Part shown: positions 13,845 to 41,907 of the stretch, piece by piece | Position numbering within the stretch: the stretch's first letter is position 1 | Layout of the letters: each line of letters opens with the position of its first letter | From: Bdellovibrionales bacterium | GTDB lineage: Bacteria > Bdellovibrionota > Bdellovibrionia > Bdellovibrionales > UBA1609 | Reading direction: 5' to 3' | NCBI GenBank assembly: GCA_020850475.1 | Contig: JADZEO010000124.1 | Coordinates: forward strand, 1-43,657 | DNA length: 43,657 nucleotides | Translations under genes and position numbers: made by a program | Notes under the pieces: generated by a model | What the model saw: only the letters and a program-made list of their open reading frames with translations | Told to the model about the DNA's origin: nothing | Database searches by the model: none

Positions 13845-13985
13845 GGCATCGGCCCTTCTGGCAAACGGGCCGAGGGCCAAGGGTTGCAGTCGGGACTTCA
13901 GCGCTCCGACACCGACACTGACTCTGACACGGACACGGACTCCGACACTGAACGGGGGCTCAGCCCCTCGGGCAGGAGGGCCAAG
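13845..13985 (+). repeat. GAC-NCN hexamer tract (locus 2) flanked by imperfect ~35-bp direct repeats
   Basis: The tract 13908-13949 alternates GAC with ACC, ACT, TCT, ACG or TCC. On each side lies a G/C-rich segment of the type GGCCCTTCTGGCAAACGGGC (about 13850-13886) and AGCCCCTCGGGCAGGAGGGC (about 13960-13992), which are imperfect direct copies. A possible 70-codon frame (13836-14048) reads SDTDTDS through the tract, but has no ribosome binding site or homology I can see. Confidence 0.6.
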
Positions 13986-14044: not shown

Positions 14045-15181
14045 TTAGTTCTGACTCAAATATTGCAAATACTTGGCGATATTGAGTCGGTTGCCGCCGA
14101 TGGTTTCAAATTTCATCGGATCGACAGGGTCGGAAGCTTCGGGTTTAAGGAAAGCCTCAAGCATCTTACGGGTGGTGATGCGACCGTAATTTTTGTTGAT
14201 CGCCAAAGCCAGGGCACCGGCGACGTGAGAGGCAGCCAAAGAAGTACTTGAGAGCTCTTGGTAGCTATTGCCGGGGGAGGTGCTGAGAACCGCTTCTCCG
14301 GGGGCGGAGGTTTCAACCGCATCGCGACCGAAGTTGGCAATCGCCGGACGAGTTTCATTCTTATCAATCGCGGTCACCGCAATCACGTTGGAGCTCAAAC
14401 GAAGCGCCGAAAGAAGATCTTCGCCCTTGGTCAAGTTAAGACCGGAGCTGCCGGCCGAAACCACGATCGGCAGGGCGGAGGCATCGACCTTTTTAAGAAC
14501 CTCGGCCACCATCGCCTTTTCGACTTTGGCGCTGTTGGGTTTAAATACATAACTTGGCAAATGCAGAACGATGAGATCGGCCTTCATTTTGACCGCGTAT
14601 TCGATGGAGCTCACTAAGTTCGGAAACTTGAATTGGCCCGAGCCATCGATAAAGCGGACGGGGAGTAAGCTGATTTCGGGCGCGATGCCGCGAATCCCAA
14701 CACCGTTGTCGGCAACGGCTCCGATAATTCCGGCCATTGCCGTGCCTGATCCGTGCCGATCATAAGGAAGGCCATCGTGATCGACAAAGTCGTAGCCGAC
14801 AAAGTCATCGACATAACCATTTTGGTCATCATCGACTTGATCGAGAGAGTTGGGCTTGCCCGGAGTCTTTTCTTTCCACTCGGACTTGTTGACGAACACG
14901 TTGTTGACCAAGTCTTCGTGGGTGTAATCGATCCCAGAGCCTAAGATGGCCACGGTGATCCGGCGCGACTGGCCATTGCCTTGTTGCCAAACTTGATCCA
15001 TGCCGACCTGTTTCATGTTCCATTGTTGGGTCGTCATGGGATCAACTACCTTAGGAACACTCTGGCGGTTGGCCGGAGAGGGGTCGAGATTGGGGTTGGC
15101 TTCGAGCACAACTTCGCGACCGCAACTCAGCAGGAGAGAAAAACCAAGTACAGGAAGTAATTTTCGCAATGTCATTTTCAT
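14045..15181 (-). CDS. Lipoprotein S8 pseudoprotease (catalytic Asp and His lost)
   Basis: Subtilase-fold paralogue of its neighbour at 15188-16933. A lipoprotein signal ends in LLLSC (Cys20). Aligned by eye with the neighbour: catalytic Asp of AIIDTGADYTHPDL is Gly81 here (AILGSGIDYTHEDL); catalytic His of GHGTHVSG is Ser145 (GSGTAMAG); oxyanion Asn of AAGND is Ser245 (SAGSS); only the Ser is kept (S314, SSTSLAASHVAG). The calcium-loop-like DDDQNGYVDD and the rest of the fold are conserved and the frame is intact, which argues for selected non-catalytic function (scaffold, inhibitor or substrate binder) rather than decay. 378 residues; it lacks the long propeptide and the C-terminal domain of the neighbour. 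Last gene of a three-gene operon, six bases after the active protease. Confidence 0.88.
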   Translation of the reverse strand: MKMTLRKLLPVLGFSLLLSCGREVVLEANPNLDPSPANRQSVPKVVDPMTTQQWNMKQVGMDQVWQQGNGQSRRITVAILGSGIDYTHEDLVNNVFVNKSEWKEKTPGKPNSLDQVDDDQNGYVDDFVGYDFVDHDGLPYDRHGSGTAMAGIIGAVADNGVGIRGIAPEISLLPVRFIDGSGQFKFPNLVSSIEYAVKMKADLIVLHLPSYVFKPNSAKVEKAMVAEVLKKVDASALPIVVSAGSSGLNLTKGEDLLSALRLSSNVIAVTAIDKNETRPAIANFGRDAVETSAPGEAVLSTSPGNSYQELSSTSLAASHVAGALALAINKNYGRITTRKMLEAFLKPEASDPVDPMKFETIGGNRLNIAKYLQYLSQN

Positions 15182-15187
15182 ACCCTC

Positions 15188-16933
15188 TTATTTCAAAATG
15201 CGCACTTTATCGATGTGCACACCTTCGGAGTTGAAGTTCGCAAAAGGTTTTCCGTCATCGAGATTAACGATGGCATTGGAAAACTTGAGATGAACCGTAT
15301 CGCCTTTAATGATCGGCGACCAATGATCCACAAACTCGCCTTTAAGATTCATGACCGGCCGATAGCGGAAGTCATAAAGAAGGGCGGCATCAAAATCCGC
15401 TTCAACTTGCGCCACGCGAATGTGAACCTGAATGGCCTTTGCTTTGGGATAGTTGAGCGTCCACGCGTTGTCGATACGCTCTTGAGGATACGAGGGGGTT
15501 TTGACGTCGACATCAAGTTCTTCCCAAGTGCCGCTCAAGTCGTCGTTGATTTGAGTCTGATTGGCAATGGCTCGGGGAAGCGAAATGCGACCACGGGCGA
15601 CCACCATATTCGCCAAAGCGGCAACAGGCTCCGCGGTTTCGATCAAGCGCTTCTTCACTTCCGCCGGCTGGCCTCGCAGAGAATTGTCAGCGGCAATCAA
15701 CAGCGCGGCGGCCCCCGCAACATGGGGCGAAGCCATTGAGGTTCCCGAGTAAGAATCATAGGGAACCACGACCGGGATCTTTTTACCAGAATCGTCCTCA
15801 GTTGTGGTTGGAACCGTGCTGTAGATATCCACACCGGGTGCCGCAACGTGGACGGTTTTCTGTCCAAAGTTACTGAAGTCAGCCAAGGCATCTCGACTGT
15901 CGGTCGCGGCCACTGAAATAATGTTGGGGAGCTCATAGTTCGCGGGATAGTGGGGATCGTTATCGCTATTGGCGCTATCGTTACCCGCGGCAAAGACAAA
16001 GAGAATTCCTTGCTGGCCGCCTTGCTTAAGTAGGCTCTCAATCAGGCGAGATTTTCCGCCGCCGCCGTAGCTGCCGTTCACGACGTCCACCTTGTTGGCG
16101 AGGATATATTTATAGGCGCGGTACTCATCGATGGTCGAACCACTGCCATTTTCGTCGAGAAATTTGACTGGCATAATGCTGACCTGCCAGTTCACTCCGA
16201 CGACACCAATGCCATTGCCCCCAACGGCACCAATGGTACCAGAAACGTGAGTGCCGTGACCTTGATCGTCCATTGGATCGGGATCACCGACCTGACCGTA
16301 GTGCAGGTGTTCGCGCGTTCCGCTCACCGCATCCCACCCATGGAGGTCGTCAACATAGCCGTTGCCGTCGTCATCTTTTCCTGGCACGCCGGCTTTTTCT
16401 TTTTCGTTAATCCAAATATTGTCGATCAAATCCGGGTGAGTATAATCAGCACCCGTATCAATAATGGCGACCACCACGTTGCGATTGCCCTTCGTGGTCT
16501 TCCAAGCTTCAAAGGCCCCGATGTCGGCACCTCGTTGGCCTTCAATTCCGGCGGGGCTATCCTGGCCGTAGTTTTTGAGTCCCCAGAGCTTAAGCCAATA
16601 AGGGTCTTGAGGAAGGTTGTTGAGTTTCACTCTAAAGTTGGGTTCAGCAAGTTCAACAAACTTGAGCTCCTCAAGGTCGGCCGCGAAGTCTTTTGGGTCC
16701 TGGATCTTGGCGTCGCGGAGAACGAACACCTGATCCTCTTGATCGACCGTTTCAACTTGCGCAAAGTCGGCAAAAAACTTTTGCTTTTCAGCCGCTGTGA
16801 CCTGGCGATCGAGTTTTACCAGTACTTCGCCGGCCATGATTTTTGAATCGATGGCAGGTGATTGACTGATGTAGTTGTGAGCACAAGCGCCAAAGAATCC
16901 TAAAACGAAAATCGCAATAATGAGTTTTTTCAT
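15188..16933 (-). CDS. Lipoprotein subtilisin-like (S8) serine protease
   Basis: Predicted active subtilase tethered to a membrane by lipidation at Cys17 (FFGAC). Residues ~33-105 form a propeptide of the I9/fervidolysin type (AGEVLVKLDRQVTAAEK...VELAEPNFRV). Catalytic domain: D159 in IIDTGADYTHPDL, H226 in GHGTHVSGTIGA, oxyanion N318 in FAAGND, S399 in YSGTSMASPHVAG. The C-terminal ~130 residues (after RISLPRAIANQ) are beta-rich, of unknown type. Its ATG overlaps the end of the upstream gene by four bases and the pseudoprotease follows after six, so the three are co-expressed; the active and inactive subtilases probably act at the same cell surface or in the periplasm. Substrates are unknown. 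Confidence 0.94.
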   Translation of the reverse strand: MKKLIIAIFVLGFFGACAHNYISQSPAIDSKIMAGEVLVKLDRQVTAAEKQKFFADFAQVETVDQEDQVFVLRDAKIQDPKDFAADLEELKFVELAEPNFRVKLNNLPQDPYWLKLWGLKNYGQDSPAGIEGQRGADIGAFEAWKTTKGNRNVVVAIIDTGADYTHPDLIDNIWINEKEKAGVPGKDDDGNGYVDDLHGWDAVSGTREHLHYGQVGDPDPMDDQGHGTHVSGTIGAVGGNGIGVVGVNWQVSIMPVKFLDENGSGSTIDEYRAYKYILANKVDVVNGSYGGGGKSRLIESLLKQGGQQGILFVFAAGNDSANSDNDPHYPANYELPNIISVAATDSRDALADFSNFGQKTVHVAAPGVDIYSTVPTTTEDDSGKKIPVVVPYDSYSGTSMASPHVAGAAALLIAADNSLRGQPAEVKKRLIETAEPVAALANMVVARGRISLPRAIANQTQINDDLSGTWEELDVDVKTPSYPQERIDNAWTLNYPKAKAIQVHIRVAQVEADFDAALLYDFRYRPVMNLKGEFVDHWSPIIKGDTVHLKFSNAIVNLDDGKPFANFNSEGVHIDKVRILK

Positions 16934-17604
16934 GGCTGATCCTCTAACTGAGAAAAGGTGGACTTACTCCACTGCGCAAAGCGAGTGATGACGCCCTTTT
17001 CAAGCGTGTTCAAATCGCGGCTTCCGATCAATTGGCGTTTCTGCCAAAGGTAGTTGCGGTTTTTGATATTAAGAACAGACGATAGCGAGCACTTGGTCTT
17101 TTCAGTGTCGGTCAGGGTCAGGGTGTAAACAAACGAATCGAGATAGTTCTGGTTGATCGCCATCCCCACGACTTTTTCGTAAACAATCGCCTTGTTGCCC
17201 TCGACTGTATAGGTGAAGGACGAAGCGCAAGGCGTGCCATCGGCATTTTGAGCCTTGGTGCACTCGGTTTTGCTTTCAGCTACGTTGAATACCGTCAGCG
17301 GGAAATCGTGACTGCGAGTTACGTTGATAACAAAAAAGGACTCCCGCTCAGAGGTCTTGGTGGTGTCGGCTTTGGCGGTTTCTCTCCAGCCGTTAGGAGT
17401 TTTGGCTTCGGCTGATCGAACGTAAGGCGCCTTGGCCAATAATTGAGCCCATTTTTTGTCGAGCTCCTGAGTCAGATCCTTGCAGCGCCGATCGGCAGTT
17501 GCAGTGACTGAGGCCGGTAATTCCAACGATTCAGTGACGTTGGTGAGCGCCCAGCTGGACGTTCCCCAAAGACACAAAACCACACTAAGTAGCTTTGCTA
17601 ACAT
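16930..17604 (-). CDS. Exported protein of unknown function, first gene of protease operon
   Basis: I do not recognise the family. From the ATG at 17604, 224 residues; this start follows a GGGGTGGGA ribosome binding site and begins a clean signal peptide (MLAKLLSVVLCLWGTSSWA, cleavage before LTN). An in-frame start 36 bases further up would put twelve residues before the signal. The mature part has four Cys in two pairs (RRCKDL, ECTKAQ, PCASSF, KCSLSS), suggesting disulfides in the periplasm or outside. The stop overlaps the start of the lipoprotein subtilase (ATGA type), so it may be a partner, substrate or chaperone of that protease. Inference from position only. Confidence 0.75.
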   Translation of the reverse strand: MLAKLLSVVLCLWGTSSWALTNVTESLELPASVTATADRRCKDLTQELDKKWAQLLAKAPYVRSAEAKTPNGWRETAKADTTKTSERESFFVINVTRSHDFPLTVFNVAESKTECTKAQNADGTPCASSFTYTVEGNKAIVYEKVVGMAINQNYLDSFVYTLTLTDTEKTKCSLSSVLNIKNRNYLWQKRQLIGSRDLNTLEKGVITRFAQWSKSTFSQLEDQP

Positions 17605-17730: not shown

Positions 17731-18300
17731 TTATAACTTAATATTTTGTTTAAGCTCTTCGATCAGTTTTTGATTGGTGGCTTGAGCCCGGCGTAGATCT
17801 TCAATTTCACGTCCGATGCGATCTTTCTGGGGCTTTGGGGTCGCCGAACCTTGGACCTGGGCTAACAACGAATTCAGCTGGCTGCCAATTTCCTGATTGG
17901 TTTTTTCGAGTTGGTAGATCTTGCGGCCCAGCCGAAAGCGGCCGACAAACTCGCCCTCTAAGTCAGCCGGGCAAACGTAATAATAAATCTGCCCCGTGCG
18001 ACCCATTTCGTAACCATTAGTGGGAGTGCAAAAATCAACTAAACCTGCATTGCGGCCATTCAGATAGAGGTTTTCTCGGGCGAGGTCCGATTCAAGTCGG
18101 CACTCATTGCGGCGGCTCTCATATAAGTTAATTGGGAGCCCCTGGGACCCATCCCGCCTGCCGAGCTCGTACCAATCGACATTTTCGCAGCCTTGGCGGT
18201 CCAAGGGTGGGTTGGTGATGCACCCGACCGTGAGACCCAGCGCGAGCAGGGCCAGAGCAAAGTTAAGTCCGTGAATACGGATAAAAGACAGCCATCTCAT
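17731..18300 (-). CDS. DUF2799-like lipoprotein
   Basis: 189 residues with a lipoprotein signal ending LTVGC. The mature region has the repeated W/Y-x-x-G-x-x-x-G pattern of DUF2799 proteins: VDWYELGRRDGSQG, YLNGRNAGLVDFC and GYEMGRTGQIYYY, with three or four conserved-type Cys. The last ~60 residues form a short coiled coil (LEKTNQEIGSQLNSLL, EDLRRAQATNQKLIEELK). The function of this family is unknown; similar small lipoproteins are found in proteobacterial envelopes. It is divergent from queF, with 166 bases between the starts. In its downstream gap (17605-17730) I see nothing clear. Confidence 0.75.
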   Translation of the reverse strand: MRWLSFIRIHGLNFALALLALGLTVGCITNPPLDRQGCENVDWYELGRRDGSQGLPINLYESRRNECRLESDLARENLYLNGRNAGLVDFCTPTNGYEMGRTGQIYYYVCPADLEGEFVGRFRLGRKIYQLEKTNQEIGSQLNSLLAQVQGSATPKPQKDRIGREIEDLRRAQATNQKLIEELKQNIKL

Positions 18301-19177: not shown

Positions 19178-20917
19178 TTAGCCAAAGACGATGGCTTTTA
19201 AGCGAGCCGTAAGACTCGGAGCATCCTGACCCACGACCAAATGGACCAAACCACCTTGGAGATTCATCAGAGCTCGAAGGCCTGAGGTCTCGAGGGCTTT
19301 TTCATCGAGGTTTTCTTTGCGTTTCAGCTCAAGGCGCACGCGATTGCCGGCAACGCAGTCGATCGCTGCAATGTTGTGCTCGCCACCGAGGGCTTCGACC
19401 CACGCCCGCAGCTGCTGCTCAAGGTCGACTTTTTGAGTCGCCGAAGCCGCGGACCTGGGCATCCGACCTTTTAAGAATAGTTCCATTTCGGTTTTGAGGT
19501 TTTCTGAGCGAGTTCCAAAAATAGCTTGAACCCCTTTGCCCACGACCACCACCCCGGCGGCGCCCATGGATTTAAGCATCGCTTGATCCACTTTTTTAAT
19601 GTCGCCAACGGACACCCGCAGGCGGGTGATGCAAGCATCCAGAGCGGTAATGTTGGCAGCTCCGCCAAAGGCGACGACCAATTGCTCAGACATGCCGGGC
19701 GAACCTTCGGCCCCGACCGTAGCGACCTCAAGGCCATTGTCCTCTTCGCGACCCGGAGTGCGCAGGCCGAAGTACTTAATCGAAAAGTGAAACACGCCAT
19801 AGTAAAGCGCCGCCCACATAGGACCGATCACCCACAACCACAGGCCGTTGGACGATTTGGAAAACAACACCACGTAGTCGATGAAGCCGTGAGAAAAAGT
19901 CATGCCGTGTTTGATGCCCAAAAGAATGCAAAGCAAGTAAGCGGCGGAGCACAACAGCGCATGAAAGAAGTAAAGAATCGGCGCCACAAACAAGAAAGTA
20001 AACTCGATGGGTTCGGTGATGCCCGTGAGAAATGAAGTCAGGGCCGCACTCAACATGATACCGCCCACTTTGGCGCGGTTTTCAGGTTTGGCCGTACGCC
20101 AAATTGCAATGGCGGCCGCCGGCAGACCGAACATCTTGAACAAATAGCCACCGGCCATGTTTCCAGCCGTTGGATCACCAGCCAGAAAGCGATGAATTTC
20201 GCCTTTGATAACTTCGCCGGTTGCTGGATCGGTGTATTGTCCGACCTCAAAGAAAAAGGGCACGTTCCAGATGTGATGAAGCCCAAATGGGATGAGTGAG
20301 CGTTCGACAAAGCCATAGAGACTAAAGGCAAATTCGGGACTGCCTTGGGCGGCAAAATCAGACGCCGCATCGATCGCTTGGCCGATGGGGGGCCACACGA
20401 AGCTCAGCACCACTCCGACCCCGACCGCCGCAAAAGCCGTGGCAATCGGTACGAAGCGTTTACCGGCGAAAAAGCCCAAGTAGGTGGGGAGTTGAATTCG
20501 ATAATAGCGCTGGAACAAAATTCCGGCGATCATACCGATCAAGATTCCGCCAAACACCCCGGTGTCAATGGACTGCATGCCCATGATGGCTTTGGTTTCG
20601 ACCCCCAAGGCCTTGGCAGTAACGCCCATGGTGGCGACGAGGACGGCAAAGCCCACGACCGCCGCGAGGGCGGAAACCCCGTCGTTGTCGGTGTAACCCA
20701 AGGCCACGCCGACGGCAAAAATCAGCGGCAGGTTGCCAAAGATGGCCCCACCGGCTTGTTCCATTACCTGTGAGACGACGAGAGGAATAATGTCAAAGTG
20801 CGCGGCGCCCACGCCCAGCAGAATTCCTGCTGCGGGCAAGACCGCCACGGGTAACATCAGTGCCTTTCCTAGCTTTTGCAGTTGTGCGAAGCCGTGTTCT
20901 CTTAGAAGTTTCATCAT
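19178..20917 (-). CDS. nagE: PTS sugar permease EIIC-EIIB, probably N-acetylglucosamine specific
   Basis: Membrane component importing and phosphorylating a sugar of the glucose/GlcNAc family. Residues ~10-370 are EIIC with about ten membrane segments ([50 protein letters not shown], the substrate-binding GITEP box). EIIB follows with phospho-Cys about residue 429 ([12 protein letters not shown]). Then comes a second EIIB-like domain, [14 protein letters not shown] (Cys about 521) ending in [12 protein letters not shown], instead of the EIIA found in E. coli NagE; its Cys-loop is altered. Start ATG 20917 follows GGGGAGGAAC; a longer frame to 21025 would overlap the upstream gene. Seventeen bases after nagF, whose product supplies EIIA. 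GlcNAc is inferred from the NagF/NagE pairing; glucose is possible. Confidence 0.88.
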
Positions 20918-20934
20918 AACCTTTGTTCCTCCCC

Positions 20935-23565
20935 TTAGTTCCTTTTTGGAAATTCCCTTTTGATCAAATCTCTGACTTGTTGGGCTGAGGTCATGCCCAA
21001 CGCTTGTTCGGCGACTCGCTCGCAATGGGCGAGATGAAGGTCGCGCACCCGCGCTTTAATGCCCGGGACGGACGGCAAGCTGACACTGAGCTCGCGGAGT
21101 CCGAGTCCTATTAGGATCGGCACGCCACTGGCGTCTCCGGCGATTCCCCCACAAATTCCCACCTCGATCTCGGCCCGATGAGCTGCGGTCACGGTCTGTT
21201 GGATGAGTTTAAGCACCGCCGGATGAAGGCCGTCGACATGACGGGCGAGAGAGGGATGGTTGCGATCCATGGCCAGCGCATATTGGGTGAGGTCGTTGGT
21301 GCCGATCGAAAAGAAGTCCACTTCGCGGGCCAGTTGGTCGGCCATGAGAGCCGCGGCTGGTACTTCGATCATAATCCCGAGCGGAAGCGCGGGAACTCCC
21401 AGAGACTCTTGCTCTTCGCGTACCATCGCGCGCGCGGCTTGAACCTCGTCAAGATTGGTCACCATTGGTAACATCAGACGAATCGGGCCATGCTGGTGGG
21501 CACGTAGCAGAGCGCGGACCTGGGTGCGAAACAGTTGCTGTTCTCTGAGGAGCAGTCGCAGACCTCGCTCCCCCAAAAACGGATTGTCTTCAGCGGGCAG
21601 TGGGCAATAGGCGAGGGGTTTGTCTCCCCCCACATCGAGTGCCCTGATAATTACCGGACGATCAGGTCCCAGGCATTGGGTGATATGACTATAAATCTGG
21701 TACTGCTCTTCTTCGGAGGGCGCGGTCTGGCGATTCAGAAATAAAAATTCACTGCGCATGAGTCCCACGCCCTCGGCACCCAAGGTTCGACCGCGCTCCG
21801 CTTCTTGATGGGACGCAAAATTGGCGAAGATCAAAATTTGAGTTCCGTCTTGAGTCATGGCAGTTTGCTGAGCCGCTCGCTCCTCCGCCTGGCGTTGGAC
21901 TTCAAGATTTTGGTTCAGTTGCGCGAGGGCCTCGAGTTCTTGGCTCGAAGGCTTGAGTTGAAGATATCCCTCATTCGCATTGAGAATGACCGTTTCACCG
22001 TCAGAGAGGTTAAAGGCTCTGGCATCGATCGCCGCCAAGGCCGGAAGGCCCAGCGACCTTGCTAGGATGGCCACGTGACTTGAGCTGCCCCCTTTGAGCG
22101 TGCAAAATCCGACGACTTGGTTGCGATCAAGAGCGGCGGTGTCAGAGGGCGTGAGGTCTTCAGCCACCAAGATGGTTTGCGGCGGCAGTTGGGGAATTTC
22201 TGGAGTGCTCTCCATGAGCTGGGCGACCAAGCGGCGACCCACGTCTTTGAGATCGTTGGCGCGGGCGGCGATCAACTCATTGGCGACCTTCTCAAGTCGA
22301 GCGACCTCGTGGCTAAAGACGGCATTCACGGCCCAGGCGGCCGATTTACCTTGATGGATCAGGTCCTCAATTGCTGAGAGCAGGGCTGGGTCCTCGAGAA
22401 TATCCAAATGAGCGGCAAAAATCGCGGCCTGCCCGGCGCCGGCCGAGGCTTTGACTTGCTGCTGGAGAGTTTGCAAATCCTGCGCAACGCTTTGGAGGCC
22501 AACAAAAAGGCGTTGGTGTTCCTTGGCGCTGGCCTCACCGTACTCTGGCGGAGTCAGTGACTGTGGCTGGTAAACATAAATGCGGCCAGCGACGATTCCG
22601 GGGGCGGCCACCACACCACCCAGGCGATTTTCGTGAGTCATGACCGCCGTTGCGGCGGTTGAATTCCGCAAGGGTGAGGTCGGAGCATCCTCTTGCAATT
22701 CGCTGAGTAAGCGCTGCAGTTCTTTGACGGCCAACCGATGGTCCGCGCCTTGCGCGGTGATTGCCACTTCGCCTTGGTGCGGGACCGCCAGCTCGAGCAA
22801 CTGCACGAGCGAGCGGCACTGCGCGGTTTTGCCGGCGTAGGTGAGGGTCAGTTGCGAGGAAAAGCGCTTCGCTGCTTGAACTACCAGCGAAGCCGGCCGC
22901 GCATGGAGTCCAGTCTCAAGCGGGATTTTCACTCGCGCACTACTGTTGGCCTCCGCCGCCTCGATCTCGGTCTCTGACTCCGACACCGACACCGTCTCCG
23001 ACTCCGACTCCGACTCCGACTCCGACTCCGACTCCGACTCCGACCCCGACACCGACCCCTGCGTGTCCCCCGCTCCTCGCAAGCCCCGCAAAACCAAAAA
23101 CCCGGGCTTATTTTGCTGAGCGAGGCCGTAGGTCACTTCGAAATCCACACTTTGGCCGTCGGCCAAAATAATAATGGGCGAGATCAAGCTCGGCACTCGT
23201 TGGGCGAGGTAGTCGGCATCAAACTGAATCAGGGGTTGCCCGGCCGTGACCTGGTCTCCGACCTTGACCAAACAGTGAAAGCCCTGACCTTTAAGTTGAA
23301 CGGTCTCGAGTCCGATGTGCATCAGCACTTGGACTCCCGAAGGGTGCCGAAGTGTCAGTGCGTGGCAAGCCGGGTGGATCTGCACCACCTCTCCCGCAAA
23401 GGGAGAAGAGAGAGTTTCGCTGAGGGGATCAATCGCCAAACCGTCGCCGACGAGTTTTTGTGCAAACACCGGATCCGGGACTTCCTCGAGGGGAATTACC
23501 AGTCCCGACAAAGGCGCAAGTAGGACCAGAGACCCTGCTTGGCCAGACACGAGATTCATTTCCAT
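20935..23565 (-). CDS. nagF: Multiphosphoryl transfer protein EIIA-HPr-EI (NagF type)
   Basis: One 876-residue polypeptide carrying the whole soluble phosphorelay from PEP. Residues 1-~140: EIIA of the glucose class, with H83 as phospho-His ([13 protein letters not shown]) and H68 as its partner. Residues ~165-208: a Ser-Glu-rich linker including eight consecutive SE pairs (175-190). Residues ~210-290: HPr with phospho-His221 ([10 protein letters not shown]). Residues ~313-876: enzyme I with H497 ([17 protein letters not shown]), [40 protein letters not shown] and the active Cys in GICGGIAGD. The same architecture is found in Pseudomonas and Xanthomonas NagF for GlcNAc uptake. ATG at 23565 with AAAGGG-type purines upstream. 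The linker DNA is a microsatellite (see the repeat entry). Confidence 0.92.
22974..23056 (+). repeat. GAC-NCN hexamer tract (locus 3) encoding the NagF Ser-Glu linker
   Basis: Eight perfect consecutive CTCCGA hexamers at 22996-23043, flanked by GACACC and GACCCC variants. Read on the coding (minus) strand, it gives SESESE, in frame between EIIA and HPr. The plus-strand repeat phase (GAC-TCC) is the same as at 661-723 and 13908-13949. Confidence 0.9.
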
Positions 23566-29634: not shown

Positions 29635-29709
29635 CACCTACAATTATTTTTTGGCAGCCATAACAAAATCCCAATCATTTTACCGTCAAGAACGGCCGAT
29701 AAATGATTG

Positions 29710-31677
29710 ATGGTAATTGAAGATCAATACGCCCAAAAAACGACCAAAGAGGATCAATCTGAGACGGGGGAAGTCCGCCACCGCTCATCGCGCTTGCGAC
29801 TCGCTTCGCCGCTGGATCGTTTGGCGGCGGTGATTGTTGACCTGTTCTTAGTGATCTTTCCGGTTTCCGCCTTGGTCGGAGCGCCATTTAAGCGCGAGAT
29901 CATGAAAGCGCTTATCCTTCAGGATGAAACTGAGTTCGCCTTTTATCTGGTGATGATCACTTTGAGTTCCGGACTGGTGGTTATTGTTTACCAAACGTTG
30001 ATGGTGTGGCTCTTTGGTGGAACGTTGGGGAAAATGTTTTGGGGACTGCGAGTGGAGCGTCTTTGGAAACATCGTCGTCCGACTTTTACGGCGGCCTTGT
30101 TGCGATCCGTATTTTGGTTGTTTGATTCGCTGCTCGCGATGGTTCCCCACTTGGCGGTCTTTTCTAACGAAAAGCGCCGTCCCTTTCACGATCGAGTTTC
30201 TGACACCGTCGTGGTGACAATAAAAAATCGCGAGGCGCGTTCGCCCGGAATTATCGAGGCCTCGTTTGTTCACGGAGTGGTTGCGGCTTTCGCGGTTTTT
30301 ATGGTGATTTTTCTCACCTTCAGTTCCTTTGATTACTATCTGGACGCCAAATCGAAAGACCCCTTAGTTAGTTCCCTGGAAGAAGATGGCAGCCTTTGTA
30401 GCTCGGTCGGTGAGGCCGCTGAAGATTGGCCCACCGTCGATGGTGAAACTCCGGATCGGCTGCAGGTGGCGATGGCCTTATTTGCGGCCGGTGAAGTTGC
30501 CAAGTCCTGTTTGAGTGCCGAGGTGGATTTGAAGCTGGTGCGAGAGGGTGAAGAATCGCCCTTGGCTTATCTTGCGCAATCCTTTGTTCATGCCGACAAT
30601 GCCGAGCTGTCGGATCGCTATCTGGCTCGCGTCTGCGAACTGGCACCGGACTCAGACAGTTGTAAGATGAGTGAAGTGGTTTCTCTTTGGACCGAAGAAA
30701 AATGGAACGAAGTTGAGTCGATCTTTGGGGCACTGGACAAGACCCAGGAACACTACATCTTTGTGTGGGCCGTTCGGCACTATGTTCGTCGCGGAGATTT
30801 TCACCTCGCTTCGAAGTACCTTGAAAAAATTGAACCTCGCCGCGGCTTGGGCTCCTTCTTGGGAATGCAGCGGGCGAAGGCCTATTGGGGTTTGCGGCGT
30901 CTGGAAGAGTCTCGAGCGGCGGCGGCAGTAGCCTTTGAGACTCTGGGCCCGGCGGAGCGAATCGATTTGGCAAGTTGGATGTGCTACGAGGAAGTCGAAG
31001 CGAGCTGCCAGGGCGTGCTGCAAAAGAGCTGTCAACTCCTCGAAAAGGCCGTTGCAGACTCCGGCGAGTTTCTTCTCGATGCGAAGGTGGCGCTGAGTTA
31101 CATCAAACAAAATGAGTGCCGGAAGGGCTATGGCAAAAGCTACGACGAGTTGGCGCGCAATATTCCCTTGGTTCCCGCTCGCCGCCTGCTCTTTGCCTAT
31201 AATCTGCGGAGCAAGGATCAGGTGGCTGAAGGCCGCCAGGTTTTGTGGGAGCTGGTGAATGACTCAGCCACTGAAGAAGAGTTTCGCGAAGAGGCCCGTC
31301 ACCTGCTCGTGCAATGGTCGACGCGGGCCGAAGATCTAGAAGCCCTACGCAATGATTGGGCCAAAGAAAAACAGAATCAGAATTGGCGAAAATTTGGTTT
31401 GCACCTGGTGCGCGGCTACTTTGAATTGGGTGACTACCAGCGGGCGTTTTCCGTGGTGGAGATTTTAGGCGATCGCATTTACACCGATCAAAAAGTTGGC
31501 CAACAGGCGATACTTGCTGCCTATCATTTGGGTAAGCGCCAGGAGGCCTGGGGGCTTTTGCAAAAATTGAATCCGGCGGCGCCTGCCGAGGATCAGTCGC
31601 GACGTCCTGCCAGTGCCGACAGCGGTGAATTTGAGATGATTGCTCAGGGGCTCAAGAAGGAGTTTGCGGGCAAATGA
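29710..31677 (+). CDS. RDD-domain membrane protein with large TPR-like C-terminal region
   Basis: 655 residues from ATG 29710. Residues ~25-165 are an RDD domain: Arg-Asp-type start (SPLDRLAAVIVDLFLVIFPV), two hydrophobic helices, GGTLGKMFWGLRVERL, and the closing RPFHDRVSDTVVV box. A further helix (GVVAAFAVFMVIFLTFSSF, ~190-210) precedes ~440 residues of soluble, helical, TPR-like repeats with many Cys (EAEVDLK..., LARVCELAPDSDSCKMSEV, HYVRRGDFHLASKYLEKIEP). RDD proteins are integral membrane proteins, sometimes linked to ion transport, but the solenoid extension is unusual. No Shine-Dalgarno is visible; GATAAA lies six bases before the ATG. The stop overlaps the rhomboid start by four bases. 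Confidence 0.8.
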   Translation: MVIEDQYAQKTTKEDQSETGEVRHRSSRLRLASPLDRLAAVIVDLFLVIFPVSALVGAPFKREIMKALILQDETEFAFYLVMITLSSGLVVIVYQTLMVWLFGGTLGKMFWGLRVERLWKHRRPTFTAALLRSVFWLFDSLLAMVPHLAVFSNEKRRPFHDRVSDTVVVTIKNREARSPGIIEASFVHGVVAAFAVFMVIFLTFSSFDYYLDAKSKDPLVSSLEEDGSLCSSVGEAAEDWPTVDGETPDRLQVAMALFAAGEVAKSCLSAEVDLKLVREGEESPLAYLAQSFVHADNAELSDRYLARVCELAPDSDSCKMSEVVSLWTEEKWNEVESIFGALDKTQEHYIFVWAVRHYVRRGDFHLASKYLEKIEPRRGLGSFLGMQRAKAYWGLRRLEESRAAAAVAFETLGPAERIDLASWMCYEEVEASCQGVLQKSCQLLEKAVADSGEFLLDAKVALSYIKQNECRKGYGKSYDELARNIPLVPARRLLFAYNLRSKDQVAEGRQVLWELVNDSATEEEFREEARHLLVQWSTRAEDLEALRNDWAKEKQNQNWRKFGLHLVRGYFELGDYQRAFSVVEILGDRIYTDQKVGQQAILAAYHLGKRQEAWGLLQKLNPAAPAEDQSRRPASADSGEFEMIAQGLKKEFAGK

Positions 31678-32645
31678 TCCTGCCTTATCTCAACGGCATT
31701 TTGCGTTTTAAAGACTGTCCAATCACTTGGCTGCTGTTTATTGTCAACGCCTTCATGATGATCGCCACCTACGGCGAGTTGATGGTCGCCCAAGATTCCA
31801 TCGACAAGGCCATGCGGGACGACTACTTCGTTGAGTCTCAGGGCAGTTTTTACGCCCAGTTTATCAGTGATCACAAAAATCAGTACACGCCCTTTATGAA
31901 TGAGCTTTCTCTGAGGGCGCTGAGTGGTGACGCGGACAAAGTGAAGTTGCTAGGGAACTTGGCTCTTCGCAACGATCTCTTCATCAAAGAAGCTCCGGCG
32001 TATCCCTTTAAGGGCGATCAAGTCGCAAAGGGCTGGTGGTTGGAAAAACTCGACGAATTGGGGCAAGCCCAACAGCGTCACCCCAGTTTTCTTTTGGGCG
32101 TTAGCGTTGATCACATGGGATTGCGCCACTGGCTTTCCTATCAGTTTGTGCATAGTGGCTGGCTGCACTTTGCTTTCAACATGATCTTTTTGTTTGTGTT
32201 CGGCTGTTACCTCGAATCCCTCATCGGTGGTCTCGCTTTGCTGGTGGTGTATTTAGGTTCGGGGATGATTGCGGCGGGAACTTTCTTGCTGGTGAATGGT
32301 CCGACCAGTGCCCCGTTGGTGGGAGCGAGTGGCGCGGTCAGCGGACTCATGGCCTTGTTTTGTTTTTTGCACTGGCGGGTGCCGGTGCGGTGTTTTTACT
32401 GGTTGTTTATTCCGGTTAAAGGTTACTCGGGATTTGTCTATGTTCCGGCCTGGATTATCTTTTTCCTGTGGGTGGCATCCGACCTGGGCGGACACCTGGG
32501 ATCATTGCCAGAGTTTGGTGGTATTGCCTATACCGCTCATTTGGGCGGAGAGGCCACCGGAATCATCGTGGGGAGTTTGATGTTTCTGCTCACGCGGATG
32601 CGGCGGGGAAAGTCGCTAGACAAAGACCTTCCGGCCGCTTCCTAA
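31674..32645 (+). CDS. Rhomboid-family intramembrane serine protease
   Basis: Six-helix core with the Ser-His dyad: S219 in VGASGAVSGLMAL and H289 in AYTAHLGGEATG; the upper-loop signature RHWLSYQFVHSGWLHFAFNM is present, including the His-Asn oxyanion residues. 323 residues. A first membrane helix near residue 20 is followed by a ~110-residue insertion (about 40-150) before the core, larger than in GlpG and of unknown role. Starts as ATGA over the stop of the RDD-TPR gene, so the two are translationally coupled, and the RDD-TPR product could be a substrate adaptor or substrate (inference). Convergent with putA; a weak AAATCG/CGATTT hairpin lies at 32645-32670. Confidence 0.92.
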   Translation: MILPYLNGILRFKDCPITWLLFIVNAFMMIATYGELMVAQDSIDKAMRDDYFVESQGSFYAQFISDHKNQYTPFMNELSLRALSGDADKVKLLGNLALRNDLFIKEAPAYPFKGDQVAKGWWLEKLDELGQAQQRHPSFLLGVSVDHMGLRHWLSYQFVHSGWLHFAFNMIFLFVFGCYLESLIGGLALLVVYLGSGMIAAGTFLLVNGPTSAPLVGASGAVSGLMALFCFLHWRVPVRCFYWLFIPVKGYSGFVYVPAWIIFFLWVASDLGGHLGSLPEFGGIAYTAHLGGEATGIIVGSLMFLLTRMRRGKSLDKDLPAAS

Positions 32646-40341: not shown

Positions 40342-41907
40342 ATGGCTGCGGACGTCGGCAAAACGCAAAATCGCCAAAATCAAGAGCTGGCCCAACTGCA
40401 AGAGCAGTATCGGCAACGTCGAAAGCAAATGATGGAGCAAAACGAAGCGGAGCTGGTGCGGCTGCGCGAATCCTATCGCCACAAAGAGCAAGACCTGCGG
40501 GAATCAGGCGACGCCGCCGTCAACCACATTCGGCAGGGAGCCGACGCCAAGGTTGCCAATACGCGAGAGCACAGTGAGTCCACCATTCGCTCGGAGCGCG
40601 AACGGCAGACCCGCGCCTATGACGAGCTCAAACGACAAGGACAGGAACGCCTCGAGAGTTTAAAAACCGATCGAGAATCGCGTGAGGACGCCCACCATCG
40701 CGACATCACCAATGCCCGTCAGCGCCGCGATGAAGTGATTAAACACGAGCGTGAGCAAACTAAGCAGATGCTGGATCAAGAAAATGAACGGCGGCACAAA
40801 ATCGAAAGTCAAACCAGCGAGAGTATCGACGAGGCCCGCACTCGCGCCCAAAAGGATCGTACGGCAATTCAGCAAGAGTTTTCTGAGGATGTTCGGGAAA
40901 TGAACCAGCGGCACCAAGCCCAGGTCAAGGACGCTCAGCGCAAGCACGAGGAGCAATATACTCATCTGTCGCGGCAGGAGCAGCATCGGATTAAGACTTT
41001 GCGTGAACAAAACTCGGGAGTTTACGAACGCGAGCGGCAAACCGCGAATAAGTCCTTAACAGACTTGCGGCAAAAGTCGAACGACGAGATTCACCGTCAG
41101 CAACGAGATTACGAAGAACGGTTGCGCAAGTCGAAGGAAGAAGGGCAGTCGGCTCTTAAGACGGAGCGAGACAAGGAGTTCGCCAAGCGAGAAAAGCTTC
41201 GCGGTGAGTACGACACAGAAATCAAGACAATTCATCAGCGAGGCGAGGGCGAAGTCACCAAGGAAAAGGATAAGTCGCGATTGGAGCTCCAAGCGGTTAA
41301 ACAAAACTATGACCAACAATTGAGTGAGGAGCAGACTCAATTCGAAAAGGACCGGGTAGAAAATCTCAATCGCCATCAAGAGCAGAAAGAGCGAGCTGAG
41401 AACCTCTACCGCGGCGAACTGCACAATCAAAAGACGGAGTTTCAAAAAACCTTCGTGACCAATGAGAAGGTCCATCGTGAGGCCCTCGATGGCCAAAAGC
41501 AGCGCCTGGCTGCGGCCCTCGATCAGCAGAAGAAAGCCGCCATGGAAAGCCACGGCAAGTATTTGCACAAACAAGATGATCCCTTTTATCGGCTCAAGAC
41601 CGCACCCTCGGTACTAAAAGAAAATCCTTGGTCGTATATTCTGGAGGTTGAGGTTCCCGCTGATCGCCAGGACGAAGTCGATGTGGTGGTGAAGGAAAAT
41701 CAAATTGTGATTTCAGGCTCCCGGCGCTTTCAAGATCAGGTGCAAGAGAGTGGCCGACGCCTGACCACCAGTAACTTTCAAACCTTTCGTGAAGCCGTTC
41801 CGGTTGAACATCCGGCTGTGGAAAAAGGCGTCACCCGCGAGTACAAAGACGGGCTCCTCACGGTGCGCATTCCCAAAGTTGGAATGAAGCCGCCTTCGGG
41901 AGTTTGA
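40342..41907 (+). CDS. Long coiled-coil protein with C-terminal Hsp20 (alpha-crystallin) domain
   Basis: 521 residues. Residues ~5-400 are almost uninterrupted charged heptads rich in Glu, Lys, Arg and Gln (for example AQLQEQYRQRRKQMMEQNEA), a predicted long coiled coil with no membrane segment. Residues ~428-520 are an alpha-crystallin domain: PWSYILEVEVPADRQDEVDV, VVKENQIVISGSRRF, FREAVPVEHP and the closing YKDGLLTVRIPKVG, which matches the G-x-L-x-I/V motif of small heat-shock proteins. Ordinary Hsp20 proteins are 140-200 residues with a short N-terminal arm, so replacement of that arm by a ~60-nm rod is striking. AGGAAGGGGA precedes the ATG. Possibly a cytoskeletal or spacer chaperone; function unknown. 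Confidence 0.9.
   Translation: MAADVGKTQNRQNQELAQLQEQYRQRRKQMMEQNEAELVRLRESYRHKEQDLRESGDAAVNHIRQGADAKVANTREHSESTIRSERERQTRAYDELKRQGQERLESLKTDRESREDAHHRDITNARQRRDEVIKHEREQTKQMLDQENERRHKIESQTSESIDEARTRAQKDRTAIQQEFSEDVREMNQRHQAQVKDAQRKHEEQYTHLSRQEQHRIKTLREQNSGVYERERQTANKSLTDLRQKSNDEIHRQQRDYEERLRKSKEEGQSALKTERDKEFAKREKLRGEYDTEIKTIHQRGEGEVTKEKDKSRLELQAVKQNYDQQLSEEQTQFEKDRVENLNRHQEQKERAENLYRGELHNQKTEFQKTFVTNEKVHREALDGQKQRLAAALDQQKKAAMESHGKYLHKQDDPFYRLKTAPSVLKENPWSYILEVEVPADRQDEVDVVVKENQIVISGSRRFQDQVQESGRRLTTSNFQTFREAVPVEHPAVEKGVTREYKDGLLTVRIPKVGMKPPSGV

Follow-up and report, generated by a model that had tools for sequence, protein, structure and literature searches.

In C. difficile, the cspBA-cspC genes encode the active S8 subtilase CspB and the pseudoproteases CspA and CspC, which relay the activating signal (PMC12880746, PMC6636752). 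In Treponema denticola, the acylated propeptide of the dentilisin protease PrtP is shed, and its partner lipoproteins have been proposed as the anchor of the complex (PMC8167434). The bacterial S8 pseudoproteases described in the literature that we searched are the clostridial spore Csp proteins, and a full-text search, mostly without subscription papers, retrieved no paper on Bdellovibrio and a pseudoprotease, nor on Uabimicrobium and subtilisin. Here, we describe an operon that resembles the Csp system in encoding an active S8 subtilase together with an S8 pseudoprotease missing catalytic residues, and dentilisin (prcB-prcA-prtP) in being a three-gene operon that associates a subtilase predicted to be lipidated with envelope partners.

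Operon layout and catalytic residues of the two S8 proteins

The window, that is, the whole stretch of 43,657 nucleotides that we analyzed, belongs to a Bdellovibrionales bacterium (JADZEO010000124.1). Its operon consists of three genes:

16930..17604, minus strand: p1, exported protein of 224 aa with four Cys in its mature part
15188..16933, minus strand: p2, active S8 subtilase of 581 aa
14045..15181, minus strand: p3, S8-fold pseudoprotease of 378 aa, predicted lipoprotein

The ATG of p1 is preceded by the SD-like sequence AAAAGGGGTGGG, p1 and p2 overlap by 4 bp (ATGA), and 6 bp separate the stop of p2 from the start of p3. A promoter and terminator scan of the window operon gave no signal clearly above chance.

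Several other features of the window were recorded. A gene for a DUF2799 lipoprotein (17731-18300, minus strand; Pfam E value of 1.9e-16) with a coiled-coil-like stretch at its C terminus lies directly upstream, in the orientation of the operon, and was not seen beside the operon at the other loci read. Three related hexamer/18-mer arrays of the CTCCGA / GACACT type were found at 605-716, at 13904-13948, between uvrC and p3, and at 22972-23056, where the array codes for an (SE)n linker at the EIIA-HPr junction of a fused PTS protein. The latter is a single protein of 876 aa (20935-23565, minus strand) that fuses EIIA, HPr, and enzyme I, and its gene adjoins an EIIC-EIIB gene (19178-20932). A protein of 521 aa (40342-41907, plus strand) carries an Hsp20 domain solely at its C terminus (426-514), and at 29707-32645 (plus strand), the gene of an RDD-family protein overlaps that of a rhomboid-family membrane protease by 4 bp.

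p2 matched Pfam Peptidase_S8 (PF00082) with an E value of 2.6e-56 and is composed of a lipobox (FFGAC), a prodomain (∼32-99), a catalytic domain (151-435), and a C-terminal domain of beta type (∼460-581). The residues of an active S8 peptidase are all in place (D159, H226, N318, and S399), and this DHNS set is present in 9/9 orthologues. The C-terminal domain looked CUB-like by eye, but we did not retain this identity as there was no Pfam match; a domain of the same type is also present in relatives without p3.

The S8 fold was likewise recognized in p3, with an E value of 2.7e-30 and 106.1 bits for PF00082 against a curated cut-off of 21.8. In the window protein, the triad Asp, the triad His, and the oxyanion Asn are replaced by G81, S145, and S245, respectively, and the HGTH motif is without its second His. 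Of the Asp-His-Ser triad and oxyanion Asn of an active S8 peptidase, p3 thus retains the nucleophile Ser314 (SSTSLAAS). Its lipobox, LLLSC(20), is followed by a short linker to the S8 domain, without a prodomain, and an EF-hand-like DDDQNGYVDD loop (117-126) is retained.

We then compared the nine complete p3 proteins described in the next section. In all nine, the triad Asp is changed to G/S and the triad His to S/A/Y/V; the triad Ser survives in the window p3 alone, the other eight having A/N/H. The oxyanion Asn is retained by the five planctomycete p3s and replaced in all four from Bdellovibrionota. Positions D117-D119 and D125 of the Asp-rich loop are invariant, and each of the nine is a predicted lipoprotein with a lipobox and no prodomain. 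Chance can be excluded because, among 132 distinct S8 domains in the loci examined, triad loss was confined to the nine p3 orthologues, D/H/N/S being intact in the nine p2s and in every other row. Positions that never vary in p2 but have been lost from p3 include those of the triad Asp and His, of a Ser in the SWGG strand that binds substrate, and of the Met and Pro that follow the nucleophile, and other residues are conserved specifically in p3 (D134, Y140, I178, Q183, and P238, among others). Together, these replacements demonstrate that the predicted S8 fold of p3 cannot use the subtilisin mechanism, and p3 is, as read from the alignments, remodelled under constraint rather than decayed.

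The lipoboxes of p2 and p3 are predictions read by eye. By this reading, a clear p2 lipobox is present in the four Bdellovibrionota, and the planctomycete p2s are without a clear one. Where present, the lipid site of p2 precedes the prodomain, so that normal subtilase maturation would release the enzyme from its lipid. Since a lipobox is found in 9/9 p3s but, for p2, a clear one only in Bdellovibrionota, p3 would be the sole constant, predicted anchor. The initial annotation had described three overlapping or nearly touching genes at 14045-17604, and we confirmed the coordinates and overlaps. Direct reading gave the same residues that it had named (D159/H226/N318/S399 in p2 and G81/S145/S245 in p3); it had also considered a calcium-loop-like region to be kept in p3. 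The retained Ser314, the loss from HGTH, and the missing prodomain of p3 are additions to that annotation. Its proposal of a membrane-tethered pair holds for p3 but not generally for p2, given the planctomycete copies.

Distribution of the module and the third exported protein

When p3 was queried against 59 relatives, two full-length relatives, with 42% and 36% identity, exceeded the S8 background by a wide margin. Profile searches detected p3 in 4 of 369 Bdellovibrionota genomes (the window, G005, G135, and G039) and in 5 of 392 sampled Planctomycetota (G369, G420, G440, G395, and the deeper G375). Most p3-bearing genomes are draft assemblies; G369, Candidatus Uabimicrobium amorphum (NZ_AP019860.1), is a complete chromosome with p1-p2-p3, and p3 was present in four of the six genomes examined of the Uabimicrobium class. 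The three-gene order, which the initial annotation had suggested looking for in other Bdellovibrionota, was found there and beyond: the order p1-p2-p3 is identical in nine genomes of two phyla, the four Bdellovibrionota (including the window) and the five Planctomycetota. In each, an exported protein of ∼225-285 aa is followed by an active S8 protein with a C-terminal domain and by a pseudo-S8 lipoprotein, the genes overlapping or lying ≤∼12 bp apart except in G375 (88 and 57 bp). A tenth copy, in G027, covers p1, p2, and only the beginning of p3, with its lipobox and LDPLP motif, followed by unrelated sequence at the contig end.

Further profile matches at 1e-50 to 1e-75 (G563, G761, G763, G766, and G767) were counted as not p3. 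The match in G563 is an active S8 protein of 1147 aa, and the loci leading to four of these genomes had intact triads only. At an E value of ≤1e-90, p3 was found in 0/237 Acidobacteriota and in 0/237 genomes of the phylum of a Desulfobacteraceae genome, both being weak absences obtained with no positive control. Most Bdellovibrionota searched, close relatives included, are without the module, which is thus not a general predation gene. The scatter of the module over two phyla points to horizontal transfer or to numerous losses, and the trees fit either.

In Bdellovibrionota, the five best loci for the p2 profile (E values of 1e-236 to 1e-277) all adjoin p3, that of G027 being partial, whereas the next-best loci reached ∼1e-161 or weaker. 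The 25 next-best loci that we checked (L149-L173) encode a stand-alone S8 subtilase with the same catalytic and C-terminal domains as p2; they have no adjoining p3, and no second S8 gene was found in their flanks, examined up to ∼1.5 kb on each side. The full-length p2 type occurs in Bdellovibrionota only with p3. As the five top loci are paired and the 25 next-best are unpaired, pairing with p3 marks a distinct p2 subclade. At an E value of ≤1e-120, the p2 profile matched 241 of the 369 Bdellovibrionota genomes.

The window p1 carries the signal peptide MLAKLLSVVLCLWGTSSWA and had no match in Pfam, in NCBIfam, or in 58 relatives. The p1 proteins of the three subgroups showed no significant likeness to each other by hhalign (E values of 0.12-0.38), so their equivalence is based on position, size, and export, and we rejected p1 as one sequence-supported family. 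One of nine p1s gave a weak Polyketide_cyc match (E value of 0.048). A model of the Uabimicrobium p1 (pLDDT 70) matched PRELID1 by Foldseek with an E value of 3.4e-4 and a low TM-score; the other matches, also with low TM-scores, were Ups1, CERT START, PR-10, and AHSA1-like proteins, and every one of these matches belongs to the helix-grip type. In the helix-grip fold, a curved beta sheet grips a long C-terminal helix around a cavity. The AF2 model of the window p1, built from an alignment that included other p1s, was poor (pLDDT 45), with strands and helices in the same order as in the Uabimicrobium p1. A START/PRELI-like helix-grip fold, of a possible lipid-binding type, is thus a lead for p1, held with low confidence.

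Selection and ancestry of p3

Pairwise identity ranged over 30-67% for p3, 34-61% for p2, and 12-50% for p1. As dS was saturated, we used pN/pS, whose values are upper bounds for omega: 0.23-0.57 for p3, 0.32-0.57 for p2, and 0.43-0.88 for p1. By these estimates, p3 is as conserved as p2, and the purifying selection on it is at least as strong.

In a maximum-likelihood tree of 55 rows, the p2 proteins formed one clade (98/98) and the p3 proteins all lay on one side of a branch (100/96), not nested in p2; a quick tree of 129 rows agreed with this separation. The nearest relatives of p2 are the stand-alone Bdellovibrionota subtilases, whose C-terminal domain is of the same kind. We found no support for an origin of p3 by recent tandem duplication of p2, p2 and p3 being separate clades and the sisters of p2 being stand-alone S8 proteins. 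The initial annotation had called p3 a dead paralogue of p2, which is correct at the level of the S8 family but not more closely, as p3 falls outside the p2 clade. It had also named two outcomes that would count against its reading. Orthologues regaining the Asp and His did not occur among the nine complete p3s, and an inactive copy unique to this genome and evolving neutrally is contradicted by its presence in nine genomes under the pN/pS given above.

These data bear on whether p3 could be a sequencing error or a duplicate of p2 that persists by chance while decaying. Ser314 is still present in the window p3, as could be expected early in the course of loss, and the majority of the genomes are drafts. 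However, the triad is lost in nine genomes of two phyla, one of them a complete chromosome, and the identity and pN/pS values of p3, as well as its clade apart from p2, also argue against decay or error, which we consider highly improbable. The recurrence of the same trio in Bdellovibrionota and Uabimicrobium indicates that the inactive copy is a component maintained by selection. Together, p3 is a conserved and selected protein, a pseudoprotease as judged by its residues, that is fixed in a three-gene exported module, which makes the case stronger than in the initial annotation.

Proposed working of the module and comparison with known systems

We propose that p3 is a scaffold and allosteric control subunit on which mature p2 docks, with p1 as the third part of one exported module, and give this proposal about an even chance of being right. 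p2 would be exported with its prodomain, autoprocess, and lose any lipid attached ahead of the prodomain, for which the shed acylated propeptide of PrtP and the proposed anchoring by its partners offer a precedent (PMC8167434). Once mature, the catalytic domain of p2 would then dock on lipid-anchored p3, which would hold p2 at the envelope, the dead, remodelled S8 domain of p3 setting the activity of p2; p3 would be a scaffold and allosteric subunit and not an enzyme. p1, the third exported part, would perhaps bind a hydrophobic ligand or lipid and help assembly or sensing. We infer that the three products form a physical complex; the conserved operon also fits a shared pathway with no complex. 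The job of p3 is probably to hold or control live p2.

Instead of a scaffold, p3 could be a dedicated inhibitor or safety lock that binds the active site or a docking face of p2 until the target is reached. The overlapping genes suggest joint expression, the lack of a prodomain leaves the surface of p3 free, and pseudoenzymes often regulate their cognate enzymes via heterodimers (PMC12880746). Yet p2 carries its own prodomain, the usual inhibitor of subtilases, and p3 has no inhibitor-like feature, so we view a lock as unlikely. We assign a similarly small probability to p3, with p1, serving as a receptor or binding protein, either presenting a substrate or sensing a ligand, and signaling to p2 in the manner of Csp proteins or acting apart from p2. 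In the Csp system, active CspB is encoded alongside the S8 pseudoproteases CspA and CspC, which transduce germinant signals, and the Uabimicrobium p1 model is START/PRELI-like; on the other hand, p3 has neither the Csp jelly-roll insertion nor a prodomain, the fold of p1 is of low confidence, and no ligand is known.

Beyond the scaffold and control role that we favor for p3, a broader and doubtful scenario is an independently evolved lipid-anchored complex, in which a pseudosubtilase receptor or anchor and a START-like exported lipid sensor together hold and trigger an active subtilase at the envelope. It would be patchy in Bdellovibrionota and in phagotrophic, Uabimicrobium-type planctomycetes and possibly serve prey handling. 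Uabimicrobium species take in prey cells by engulfment (PMC11481906, PMC11032199), and a possible link of the module to feeding or prey handling is attractive. The occurrence of the module in a cell-engulfing planctomycete and in Bdellovibrio relatives makes such a role testable.

p3 looks like a second, separately inactivated S8 lineage, found in one operon in two phyla with a predicted membrane anchor, and p2/p3 offer a natural setting for comparing how an inactive subtilase controls an active one. p3 scored weakly on the NCBIfam models CspBA (6e-10) and CspC (1e-6), far under the cut-offs. The Csps are soluble, belong to the spore, and have a prodomain as well as a jelly-roll insertion of ∼130 aa, whereas p3 is a predicted lipoprotein with neither: a short linker joins its lipobox to the S8 domain, which contains no long insertion. 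This places p3 outside the Csp family. Csp pseudoproteases are reported only from Peptostreptococcaceae, p3 from two other phyla, and CspC keeps its Asp, whereas p3 has lost Asp and His. The inactivation of p3 looks independent of that of the Csp proteins. As for dentilisin, p2 scored 8e-32 on the PrtP model, with 110.6 bits, below the cut-off of 300, and p1 and p3 matched neither the PrcB nor the PrcA family in Pfam and NCBIfam, so the module is not a dentilisin complex. PrcA and PrcB are, moreover, not described as S8 pseudoproteases, and the protease gene comes last in prcB-prcA-prtP. Altogether, the Csp system is the closest in principle and dentilisin the closest in layout, and the p1-p2-p3 module belongs to neither.
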